DNA of 64,000 nucleotides from NCBI RefSeq assembly GCF_900112525.1, contig NZ_FOMD01000001.1:930001-994000 (forward strand), read 5' to 3'. Shown here one piece after another: positions 752 to 3,018 of the stretch (position 1 is the first letter of the stretch; each line of letters begins with the position of its first letter). A program made the translations under genes and the position numbers. Origin of the DNA: Klenkia taihuensis (GTDB lineage: Bacteria > Actinomycetota > Actinomycetes > Mycobacteriales > Geodermatophilaceae). The notes below the pieces were generated by a model. The model ran no database searches, was not told the origin of the DNA, and saw nothing but the letters and a program-made list of their open reading frames with translations.

Positions 752-781
752 CGGGGAATCCCCACCGGACCGGTCGCGTTG

Positions 782-1234
782 GTGCCGGTCGTGGACTTGA
801 CCGGTGCGGTGGTGCTCGGCGCCGCCCTCCTGCTGACGGCGGTGGTGGCCTGGTGGCTGCGGACCCGCAGCGGGGCGGTCCGGACGACGGGAGGGGCAAC
901 CGTGCGGGAGGTCGAGGTGCTGCGCGGGCTCGGCGTGCGGCCCGAGGACGCCGACCTGACGGTGGTCCAGTTCGCCACCGCGTTCTGCGCGCCCTGCCGC
1001 GCGACGAAGGCCCGGCTGACCCAGCTGCAGACCCGCCACCCGGGTCTGGCCGCCGTCCACGTGGACGCCGAGAGCGAGCTGGACGCCGTCCGGGCGCTGG
1101 ACGTGCGGCGCACCCCGACGCTGTTCTACCTCGACCGCAGCGGTGCCCTGCTGGGCCGCAGCAGCGGTGCGCCCCGCCCCGACGAGCTGGCCGCCCTGGT
1201 GGCCGCGCACGCCCCGGCGCAGGGGCACGTGTGA
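782..1234 (+). CDS. membrane-anchored thioredoxin-like protein
   Basis: About 150 residues. An N-terminal membrane helix (about 4-22) is followed by a thioredoxin fold with active site FCAPC (Cys69 and Cys72) and the cis-proline segment 'RTPTLFYL'. It is probably a membrane-tethered thiol-disulfide oxidoreductase. It corresponds in position to mycobacterial ThiX, next to the CysA2 rhodanese operon. The start is uncertain: TTG 779, GTG 782 and GTG 791 are all in frame and none has a clear ribosome-binding site. It stops 24 bp before the leaderless leader peptide of the sulfur operon. Confidence 0.7.
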   Translation: MPVVDLTGAVVLGAALLLTAVVAWWLRTRSGAVRTTGGATVREVEVLRGLGVRPEDADLTVVQFATAFCAPCRATKARLTQLQTRHPGLAAVHVDAESELDAVRALDVRRTPTLFYLDRSGALLGRSSGAPRPDELAALVAAHAPAQGHV

Positions 1235-1257
1235 TGGGTGTTGCTACCCTCCCCGGC

Positions 1258-1341
1258 GTGGGCACCCTGCTGACTCAGCGACGCACAGTCGACCTGTGCC
1301 GCCTGGGCAGCTGCCTGTGTCGCGCCTCCCTCCGAGGCTGA
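1258..1341 (+). CDS. leaderless cysteine-rich leader peptide (27 aa) of the sulfur operon
   Basis: A short frame of 28 codons begins with GTG at 1258 and stops at TGA 1339-1341. The peptide has an RR-VDLCR core followed by two more cysteines (Cys14, Cys19 and Cys21, codons at 1297, 1312 and 1318). A -10 element TACCCT (1245-1250) lies exactly 7 nt before the GTG, so the transcript probably starts at the start codon itself. Similar leaderless Cys-rich upstream frames precede sulfur genes in mycobacteria, and similar 'putative leader peptides' occur in Streptomyces; there they mediate cysteine-dependent attenuation (established for mycobacteria). The downstream genes here are DUF4395, rhodanese and DUF1416. 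Confidence 0.82.
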   Translation: MGTLLTQRRTVDLCRLGSCLCRASLRG

Positions 1342-1381
1342 CCTCCCGCCTCGACGAGCCCTCACCCCGCTCCTCGGAAGG
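1331..1381 (+). promoter_or_regulatory. putative attenuator stem linking leader peptide and DUF4395 start
   Basis: TCCGAGG (1331-1337), inside the last codons of the leader peptide, is a perfect complement of CCTCGGA (1372-1378). The second arm overlaps GGAAGG (1376-1381), the best Shine-Dalgarno candidate for the GTG at 1392. Ribosome position on the leader could therefore open or close this stem. The pairing is seen; its regulatory role is inference. Confidence 0.45.
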
Positions 1382-1391
1382 CCCCCACCCC

Positions 1392-1823
1392 GTGACACCT
1401 CCCCGGCAGGTCGACGTCCGTGGCCCGCGCTTCGGCGCCTGGGTCACCACGGTCGTACTGGCCGTCGTGCTGCTGACCGGCAGCGGATGGCTGCTCGCCG
1501 CGCAGGCGGTCGTGTTCGCCGTCGGCGCCTTCGCCGGCCTGCGGCACGCCCCCTACGGCGTGCTGTTCCGCACCCTCGTCGCCCCCCGGCTGGGGCCGGT
1601 CCGCGAGACCGAGGACGAGGCGCCCCCGCGCTTCGCCCAGCTCGTCGGGTTCGGCTTCGCCCTCGTGGGCACCCTCGGCTACCTGACCGGCGCGCCGGTC
1701 GTGGGCGCCGTCGCGACCGGGCTGGCCCTCGTGGCCGCCCTGCTCAACGCGGCCGTGGGCTTCTGCCTCGGCTGCGAGCTGTACCTGATCGTCCGGCGGG
1801 CCCGTCCCGCCCGTTCCCACTGA
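1392..1823 (+). CDS. DUF4395 membrane protein
   Basis: 143 residues with about four hydrophobic segments, ending in a motif containing 'GFCLGCELYL', whose paired cysteines are characteristic of DUF4395. Start chosen as GTG 1392, 50 nt after the leader peptide and 10 nt after GGAAGG. It is the first full gene of the operon that continues with the rhodanese and DUF1416 genes, so it probably works with sulfur or thiol transfer at the membrane; its biochemical role is unknown. The CxxC-like pair could take part in sulfur relay (inference). Confidence 0.8.
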   Translation: MTPPRQVDVRGPRFGAWVTTVVLAVVLLTGSGWLLAAQAVVFAVGAFAGLRHAPYGVLFRTLVAPRLGPVRETEDEAPPRFAQLVGFGFALVGTLGYLTGAPVVGAVATGLALVAALLNAAVGFCLGCELYLIVRRARPARSH

Positions 1824-1848
1824 CCCCCACCCGCAGGAGGAGAAACCC

Positions 1849-2682
1849 ATGAGCCGCAGCGACGTGCTCGTCAGCGCCGACTGGGCCCAGGAGCACCTGG
1901 GCGACGCCGGCCTGGTCTTCGTCGAGGTCGACGAGGACACCAGCGCCTACGACAAGGGCCACCTCGAGGGCGCGGTGAAGCTGGACTGGAAGACCGACCT
2001 CCAGGACCCGCTGCGCCGCGACTTCGTGGACAAGGAGCAGTTCGAGCAGCTGCTGTCGGCCAAGGGCATCTCCAACGACGACACCGTCGTGCTCTACGGC
2101 GGCAACAACAACTGGTTCGCCGCCTACGCCTACTGGTACTTCAAGCTCTACGGCCACGACGCGGTGAAGCTGGTCGACGGCGGCCGCAAGAAGTGGGAGC
2201 TGGACAGCCGTCCGCTCTCCGACGCCGAGGTCACCCGCCCGGCCACCCAGTACCGCGCCCAGGAGCCCGACACCTCGATCCGCGCGTTCCGCGACGAGGT
2301 CGTGGCCGCCATCGACACCAAGAACCTGGTCGACGTGCGCAGCCCCGACGAGTTCGCCGGCAAGCTGGTCGCCCCCGCGCACCTGCCGCAGGAGGGTGCG
2401 CAGCGCCCCGGCCACATCCCCTCGGCGGTCAACGTGCCGTGGAGCAAGGCCGCGAACGAGGACGGCACCTTCAAGAGCGACGAGGAGCTGGCCGCGCTCT
2501 ACGCCGACGCCGGCCTGGACGACGGCAAGGCCACCATCGCCTACTGCCGCATCGGCGAGCGCTCCTCGCACACCTGGTTCGTGCTGCACGAGCTGCTCGG
2601 CCACGCCGACGTCAAGAACTACGACGGCTCCTGGACCGAGTACGGCTCGCTGGTCGGCGTCCCGATCGCCAAGGGGGCCTGA
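1849..2682 (+). CDS. thiosulfate sulfurtransferase (rhodanese), CysA/SseA type
   Basis: 277 residues with two tandem rhodanese domains. The C-terminal domain carries the catalytic loop CRIGERSSHTWF with nucleophilic Cys233; the N-terminal domain has the usual inactive loop (GGNNNWFAAYAYW). It transfers sulfane sulfur from thiosulfate to acceptors such as cyanide or thiols in the cytosol. A strong AGGAGG lies 8-13 nt before ATG 1849. It sits between DUF4395 and DUF1416, the order known for mycobacterial CysA2/SseC2, downstream of a cysteine-sensing leader. The protein is notably richer in Lys and Asn than its neighbours, as is common for highly expressed rhodaneses. Confidence 0.93.
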   Translation: MSRSDVLVSADWAQEHLGDAGLVFVEVDEDTSAYDKGHLEGAVKLDWKTDLQDPLRRDFVDKEQFEQLLSAKGISNDDTVVLYGGNNNWFAAYAYWYFKLYGHDAVKLVDGGRKKWELDSRPLSDAEVTRPATQYRAQEPDTSIRAFRDEVVAAIDTKNLVDVRSPDEFAGKLVAPAHLPQEGAQRPGHIPSAVNVPWSKAANEDGTFKSDEELAALYADAGLDDGKATIAYCRIGERSSHTWFVLHELLGHADVKNYDGSWTEYGSLVGVPIAKGA

Positions 2683-2683
2683 C

Positions 2684-2977
2684 GTGTGCGGGGCCCCGAA
2701 GCAGGGCGGCGCGCTGGCCGGGGTCGACCTGTCCACCCAGACGGTCATCCAGGGCTCGGTGTGGCACGACGGGTCACCGGTCGCCGGCGCCTACGTGCGG
2801 CTGCTGGACGCCACCGACGAGTTCACCGCCGAGGTGGTGACCTCCCCGGAGGGCGAGTTCCGGTTCTTCGCCGCGCCCGGTGAGTGGAAGCTGCGCTCGC
2901 TGGCCCCGGTCGGCCGGGCGGAGCGGGTGCTCAGCGCCGAGGTCGGCCTGAACGAGACCACCCTCGCCATCGCCTGA
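2684..2977 (+). CDS. DUF1416 protein (SseC-like)
   Basis: 97 residues beginning MCGAPKQGG, the conserved N-terminus of the DUF1416/SseC family, with a predicted small beta-sandwich ('VIQGSVWHDGSPVAGAYVRL'). GTG 2684 starts one base after the rhodanese stop, so it is coupled to that gene. Members accompany the CysA rhodanese in actinobacteria and are linked to sulfur metabolism, but no reaction is established. It is the last gene of the operon; a strong hairpin follows. Confidence 0.88.
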   Translation: MCGAPKQGGALAGVDLSTQTVIQGSVWHDGSPVAGAYVRLLDATDEFTAEVVTSPEGEFRFFAAPGEWKLRSLAPVGRAERVLSAEVGLNETTLAIA

Positions 2978-3018
2978 GGCACCCCCTCCCGCAGCGTTGA
3001 CCAGGGAGGTTGATCGAC

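Follow-up and report, generated by a model that had tools for sequence, protein, structure and literature searches.

The window, as we call the whole 64,000-nucleotide stretch of DNA analysed here, contains a small reading frame on the + strand (1258..1341) with a GTG start, 27 codons and a TGA stop, which is probably leaderless. The frame 1258-1341 translates into the peptide VGTLLTQRRTVDLCRLGSCLCRASLRG, in which residues 14, 19 and 21 of 27 are cysteines, giving a C-x4-C-x-C spacing. Its cysteine codons are TGC (1297..1299), TGC (1312..1314) and TGT (1318..1320), and a -10-like box, TACCCT (1245..1250), is located 7 nt 5' of GTG 1258. Box, gap, start codon, 27-residue frame and cysteine codons had all been described in the first-pass annotation and were found again on re-reading. 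Directly upstream of the leader promoter, a thioredoxin-like gene (ThiX-like, PF00085) is encoded at 779..1234. The first gene after the leader codes for a DUF4395 protein (1392..1823, starting at GTG 1392; PF14340, 162.4 bits) and is followed by a rhodanese sulfurtransferase gene (1849..2682; PF00581, two stretches), named CysA2-like according to gene order, and by a DUF1416 (SseC-like) gene (2684..2977; PF07210, 130 bits), with all these features on the + strand. The Pfam assignments give the order LmeA-thioredoxin-leader-DUF4395-rhodanese-DUF1416, thus the leader heads an operon of the cysA2-sseC type; we take Rv0817c-Rv0814c to be the corresponding gene order in tuberculosis.

The leader is a new member of an existing actinobacterial family of likely cysteine sensors and not a new kind. 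The NCBIfam model for the Ms5788A family Cys-rich leader peptide, NF042933, aligns with it at profile positions 3-26 (of 27) with an E-value of 5.4e-11 and 42 bits, 3 bits short of the curated cut-off (45). It passes NF042934 (NCBIfam cis_reg_atten putative leader peptide; 28.3 bits, cut-off 27), a generic model whose matches include leaders of other genes. It therefore groups with the Ms5788A-type Cys leaders, in agreement with the tie to mycobacterial Cys-rich leaders drawn in the first-pass annotation. Peptide length and motif are alike in the window leader and the Ms5788A leader, whereas the three scattered cysteines instead of a run and the score below the 45-bit cut-off set it apart from that family. 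A search of 1000-3000 with the Rfam covariance models gave no match with E up to 1.

In the window's family, which the named relatives (Blastococcus, Modestobacter and Geodermatophilus) indicate to be Geodermatophilaceae, NF042933 matches were obtained in 94/96 genomes, with none of the 96 exceeding the cut-off; in the class, 199/296 genomes have a match at E up to 0.001 and 38/296 exceed the cut-off. From the 96 genomes of the family draw, 95 loci in 94 genomes were parsed (G093 is represented twice; G008 lacked an NF042933 match and the match of G082 was left out). DUF4395 was the basis of selection for 30 of these loci and the match to the leader model for the other 65, so that the occurrence of the leader in 94/95 is not an independent rate; among the 30 loci selected by DUF4395 alone, the leader is present in 29. 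The sole exception, L016 (genome G010), has a TACCGT box about 25 nt before the DUF4395 ATG, as if DUF4395 had become the first gene. The class set consists of 90 loci, the best 30 matches and 60 hand-chosen ones, mostly one per genus; 86 were anchored by pattern (L157, L158, L159 and L216 were missed) and 84 were usable for the tests of the Shine-Dalgarno sequence (SD). A named set of 80 loci overlaps the other sets, thus counts are not summed. Of its loci, 66 have a leader according to a pattern that required Cys at codon 13 with either codon allowed, and 14 have none detected by it (Streptacidiphilus, some Streptomyces, Mycobacterium gastri and others).

A TANNNT box is located 6-8 nt before the start in 94/94 family leaders (6 nt in 81, 7 in 11 and 8 in 2), the starts having been picked to have such a box where one fitted; just 95/5043 ATG/GTG codons in the family loci have one at a distance of 5-8 nt. 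In the named set, 65/66 leaders carry the box 4-9 nt upstream. According to the available part of PMC8079986, the mean distance from the TAnnnT box to the transcription start in Streptomyces lividans is 6.3 nt. The leader is a real, conserved gene with a promoter-like box, and it looks leaderless, as had been suggested for the window.

The window's genome contains five NF042934 matches at E up to 0.001, the window leader included. Five further leaders were located in the same genome: L003 (C10:622415), L005 (C4:66997-) and L007 (C5:755502), which lie over the cut-off of the generic model, and L009 (C7:72015) and L010 (C5:755148-), which lie under it. The frames after them read, in this order, as cysteine dioxygenase plus rhodanese, a TauE/SafE-like exporter, an FAD/NAD(P)-binding protein, a sulfite reductase and a GNAT acetyltransferase; these identities are a reading of the translations alone, and several appear sulfur-related. 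The last Cys codon is TGT in 4/5 of these leaders. In six genomes of one related genus (L140-L145), a leader like VVGPxSLTRRRAIDLMRLAGTLCR, combining one Met and one Cys codon, precedes an ABC transporter gene that reads in translation as MetN-like (methionine-import ATPase). An apparent in-frame TGA in the leaders of six family genomes and one class genome was considered and set aside as an ordinary stop; six of these leaders precede the MetN-like frame.

The association with DUF4395, regarded in the first-pass annotation as a new detail of this locus, turned out not to be special to the window, since DUF4395 is also the next gene in 51/84 usable class loci, the next gene being CysA2 in the other 33/84. 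In the 94 family leader loci, the leader is followed by DUF4395 in 52 (three of them broken or partial: L105, L115 and L135) and by CysA2 in 42. DUF4395 also comes next in 18/20 parsed class leaders that have three consecutive Cys, and the named Mycobacterium and Mycolicibacterium loci, picked for DUF4395, carry such leaders as well. The association itself may be unreported in print; no publication joining DUF4395 with a leader peptide was found in the open-licence literature, where DUF4395 papers were judged by title. In 13 aligned DUF4395 proteins, a C-x-G-C motif (C125, G127, C128) is invariant. Together with the adjoining thioredoxin and sulfurtransferase genes, this motif makes it possible that DUF4395 acts as a thiol-handling partner.

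In the 42 CysA2-next family loci (L076 to L151), leader and spacer are retained although DUF4395 has seemingly disappeared or been disrupted on several occasions. Several of these spacers resemble, by eye, DUF4395 remnants, some with a remnant mini-frame. CysA2 lies 115 nt or more from the leader in these loci, and the leader persists though its apparent SD target is gone.

An unexpected constraint within the leader concerns the codon of the last core cysteine. With codons numbered from the RR motif, this is codon 13 (TGT 1318 in the window), and it is TGT in 94/94 family loci, in 84/86 class loci and in 66/66 of the named set. Among leaders found with the generic model, of which 24/34 could be parsed (L234 being a window-type leader), the last Cys is TGT in 22/24. 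In the aligned parts of neighbouring genes in the same loci, TGT makes up 9/367 Cys codons in the family (2.5%) and 42/339 in the class (12%), and in 39 window ORFs picked by composition it makes up 9/94. Codon 6, the first Cys codon (1297..1299), is TGC in 94/94 family loci and in 81/85 Cys codons class-wide, whereas the second (1312..1314) is not always kept, with Cys in 79/94 family loci. The codons neighbouring codon 13 vary, so that no extended motif accounting for the T was seen. A single tRNA-Cys (anticodon GCA) is present among 45 tRNA-family matches in the genome, so that UGC and UGU share one tRNA here.

Isoacceptor charging is an explanation of codon choice in attenuators. A tentative proposal, which we hold at somewhat less than even odds, is that actinobacterial Cys leaders use UGU as a single near-invariant sensor codon, read by G-U wobble by the only tRNA-Cys and placed so that a ribosome stalled on it, and not one at the preceding Cys codons, would just cover the strand that shuts the next gene's SD. 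The synonymous choice would then be part of the sensor itself and would lengthen or sharpen the wait without a second tRNA species. If true, this rule falls outside the isoacceptor-charging account.

Another part of the leader is constrained at the nucleotide level. The Thr codon ACA is near-fixed in the family (85/88, compared with 19/3249 in the background) and is part of a possible intra-leader hairpin, GCACAG-TCGAC-CTGTGC (1283..1299, + strand), which is exact in 84/94 family leaders and takes in this rare Thr codon as well as the first Cys codon. We considered this hairpin as a proven switch element and rejected it, since GCACAG/CTGTGC is invariant across the 49 aligned rows described below and so yields no covariation evidence. 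Outside the family, the codons of both strands vary (e.g. GCG with TTC, GCA with CAC), thus class-wide conservation of the hairpin is unsupported.

Downstream of the cysteine codons, the end of the leader can pair with the SD of DUF4395, GGAAGG (1376-1381). In the window, TCCGAGG (1331-1337) is exactly complementary to CCTCGGA (1372-1378), which overlaps this SD. This 7-bp stem, proposed in the first-pass annotation, makes up the lower half of a longer helix of 11 bp with a 3-nt bulge (GCCT-CCC-TCCGAGG with CCTCGGA-AGGC), for which -18.0 kcal/mol were calculated as against -11.3 kcal/mol for the 7-bp stem alone. Four strands on the + strand can be distinguished. Strand 1, the leader tail GCCT-CCC-TCCGAGG (1324..1337; core GCCTC), can pair with the SD strand; strand 2, CGAGGC (1333..1338; core GAGGC), with strand 1 or 3; strand 3, GCCTCG (1348..1353; core GCCTC), with strand 2 or 4; and strand 4, CCTCGGAAGGC (1372..1382; core GGAAGGC), contains the SD. 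The folding energy of 1258-1410 is within chance (z -1.09, 30/200 shuffles as good) and that of 1318-1395 weakly above it (z -2.14, 5/200 shuffles as good).

For the comparison with relatives we used an alignment (A1) of 49/51 DUF4395-next family loci; L109 and L116 were omitted owing to their different spacer, and L135 had been dropped earlier. The 7-bp stem is present over the DUF4395 SD in the window (L001) but intact in just 2/49 rows, the second being L017, which is one of the seven aligned congeners. In the eight rows of the genus (L001, L012, L014, L015, L017, L020, L024 and L084), the longest exact complement between tail and SD measures 7, 3, 6, 5, 7, 4, 4 and 6 nt, respectively. What recurs in the family is not this particular stem but the pairing as such, between the last two to three leader codons and the DUF4395 SD. 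In the alignment, the tail-SD helix (66-72/125-131) is paired in 78.7% of cells, 4/7 of its pairs having changes on both sides, and a hairpin after the stop codon (76-83/88-95) forms in 75.2% of cells, with changes on both sides in 5/8 pairs. For the whole structure, which was drawn by reading the same 49 rows it was scored on, 72 cells are changed on both sides compared with a shuffled mean of 33.4 (0/500), and the covariation score is 0.151 compared with 0.094 (0/500). When the partners were offset by one to three columns, 15-22 both-side-changed cells resulted. The number of pairs in which both sides changed (9 vs 7.6, 94/500) and that of further pair types (24 vs 24.6, 373/500) do not beat shuffles. 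RNAalifold, run on the whole alignment, did not predict the tail-SD helix or the hairpin after the stop codon; its consensus is a large intra-leader hairpin with 0 compensatory pairs. Three spacer pairings that might explain conserved spacer letters (GGCAG/CUGNCC, CGCGUC/GACGYG and UGUC/GACG) were discarded, being broken in several rows by eye, without a count.

The clearest single pair is 67/130. Among the 43/49 usable rows, 25 have G-C and 18 have A-U at this pair, with 0 mixed; for this count, SDs containing an additional A (GGAGAG) were placed one base further along. On the tree built from downstream genes, this pair changed four times on each side, and 3/3 independent pairs on well supported branches agree (p 0.25, too few to reach 0.05). 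Looking for covariation in related genomes had been suggested along with the stem: the tail-SD pairing does covary, although two of five pair-count measures stay within shuffles.

Pairing energies were compared with those after reshuffling of partners, a procedure that ignores relatedness. In the family, the tail forms a duplex of -10.93 kcal/mol with its own SD and of -8.80 kcal/mol with reshuffled partners (0/5000; 41 unique rows). Once identical pairs had been removed, 50 DUF4395-first and 30 CysA2-first class loci were left: the former gave -11.15 compared with -9.64 (0/5000), whereas the latter showed no signal (-6.78 compared with -7.14, 4180/5000). In all 64 named loci, reshuffled partners were as good in 8/5000. 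The signal persists in the named set outside rows labelled Geodermatophilaceae (-9.53 compared with -8.36, 0/5000, n=54), a division by record labels which includes L250, labelled Bacillus with a family-type leader, and unlabelled MAGs; with one locus per genus, the count was 21/5000 (n=34). No tail-SD signal was obtained in Mycobacteriaceae alone (4991/5000, n=11), and pairing is weak in Streptomyces, Kitasatospora and most Kribbella rows, thus the sequences support the predicted pairing in many but not all lineages. When the two SDs within a locus are compared, the tail pairs better with that of DUF4395 than with that of CysA2 in 40/46 named loci outside the family (p 5e-7); the family loci show no clear preference of this kind (31/48, p 0.15). 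In the window's family, covariation gives the pairing more support than energy does. The downstream gene's SD, already named as the target in the first-pass annotation, is a likely one in view of the covariation and of the class-wide complementarity in DUF4395-first loci; the class-wide energies do not support a masking of the CysA2 SD in CysA2-next loci.

Taken together, we consider it probable (roughly 0.65) that the leader acts on the DUF4395-cysA2-sseC operon as a leaderless translational attenuator that responds to cysteine. The observations behind this reading are the leader gene, its conservation, the promoter-like box, the covarying SD complementarity and the UGU constraint. Transcription would begin on or beside GTG 1258, with immediate translation of the leader. 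When cysteinyl-tRNA is plentiful, the ribosome would complete the leader and depart, and the tail (in this genus, its copy just past the stop codon) would then pair with the DUF4395 SD and shut it. When cysteinyl-tRNA is scarce, the ribosome would pause at UGU 1318 with a footprint reaching the tail strand, so that strands 2 and 3 may pair and the SD would be freed. With UGU 1318 in the A site, the ribosome would cover the RNA to about 1329 and so extend into strand 1.

Folding in silico is in part consistent with this order of events, but the switch does not emerge from folds of the window by itself. In the window, 1318-1366 folds into 1:2 when free and into 2:3 when strand 1 is covered, and the full stretch folds into 1:2 plus 3:4, with the SD shut. 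The full-length minimum free energy fold with strand 1 covered retains 3:4, and a simulated stall (footprint +11 nt) did not raise the accessibility of the window's own SD, which went from 0.27 to 0.20. Thus, the switch would need to be kinetic, with strand 4 arriving last. Across the 49 rows, a simulated stall at codon 13 increased SD accessibility in 24 and decreased it in 8, compared with 10 and 6 for codon 11 and 0 and 4 for codon 6; that codon 13 opens the SD most often agrees with its being the fixed one. A simulated ribosome at the stop codon increased accessibility in 22/49 and decreased it in 3, about as often as a stalled one, so the modelled effect of stalling is modest and the stop-codon state no less open.

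A scan of 1150-1450 with a simple pattern revealed no intrinsic terminator, so a classical transcription attenuator was not recognised. This leaves room for a factor-dependent one, in which Rho would load on the C-rich spacer once the leader ribosome has left and would end transcription ahead of the operon, a stalled ribosome would shield the RNA and SD pairing would be secondary. Rho was proposed for mycobacterial cys leaders in the available part of Seliverstov et al. 2005 (PMC1262725), and the CysA2-next class loci, which keep the leader at 77-482 nt, have no tail-SD complementarity, thus another mode is needed there. Rho loading, however, predicts neither the joint change of leader tail and DUF4395 SD nor a signal confined to DUF4395-first loci, and we regard it as unlikely to be the main mode.

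Less probable still is a nascent-peptide arrest, in which the motif RRxVDLCRV would act in the exit tunnel and set the pause beyond the Cys codons. The residues R, R, V, D and L are the same in 94/94 family loci, with Val encoded by GTC (51), GTG (33) and GTT (10); class-wide, synonymous changes leave R, R, V and D in place in most of the 86 loci, and leaders before other genes carry RxxVDLxR or a near variant. Yet several of the same codons are constrained as nucleotides too, as seen for ACA, and both ligand and arrest are hypothetical here. That the leader is a mere ribosome-entry device acting by translation coupling, free of cysteine regulation, is very improbable: it would fit the simulations, in which ribosomes at the stop codon free the SD with a frequency similar to that of stalled ones, and the cysteine response of the operon is a prediction only, but it leaves unexplained the invariant Cys codons, the UGU constraint and the set of such leaders in one genome.

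The translational attenuator that we prefer resembles systems described before. Mycobacterial polycysteine leaderless sORFs (Canestrari et al. 2020, doi 10.1111/mmi.14498) are described in citing papers as having a run of Cys codons, 'contiguous' being the word used in PMC9031893. The window leader shares with them the Cys codons, the proposed cysteine-dependent ribosome speed and a leaderless start that is predicted in its case; it differs in its C-x4-C-x-C arrangement (residues 14, 19 and 21 are not contiguous) and in that the tail of the frame, not a Cys run, is the SD partner. Shell et al. 2015 (PMC4633059) reported a Cys-rich conserved small ORF upstream of Rv0815/cysA2 with its Cys cluster at the C terminus, unlike that of the window leader; the main text does not contain the term 'DUF4395'. 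The available part of PMC1262725 lists candidate Cys leader peptides in actinobacterial cys operons with Cys codons near the stop, gives no terminator hairpins for Cys leaders and leaves their mode of action open; the LEU element shown there, in which a run of regulatory codons pairs with the SD, is similar to the SD pairing in the window. Translation attenuation by uORFs is described in the accessible part of PMC13236596. To the extent that these sources could be compared, the general idea of Cys leaders and of translation attenuation by uORFs is already in print (PMC1262725, PMC4633059, PMC13236596). Two features look new, namely the ability of the leader's end to pair with the downstream gene's SD and the almost constant use of UGU for the last key Cys; neither the UGU rule nor the covarying pairing of leader tail and SD was found in the open-licence literature, which does not cover doi 10.1111/mmi.14498.

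Leaders of this type are widespread, as the matches in 199/296 sampled class genomes show. The covarying tail-SD pairing provides a concrete mechanism that can be tested, with loci that have lost the first gene as natural controls. Furthermore, the near-fixed UGU lets a single silent base change separate the decoding of the codon (or the RNA) from the amino acid.
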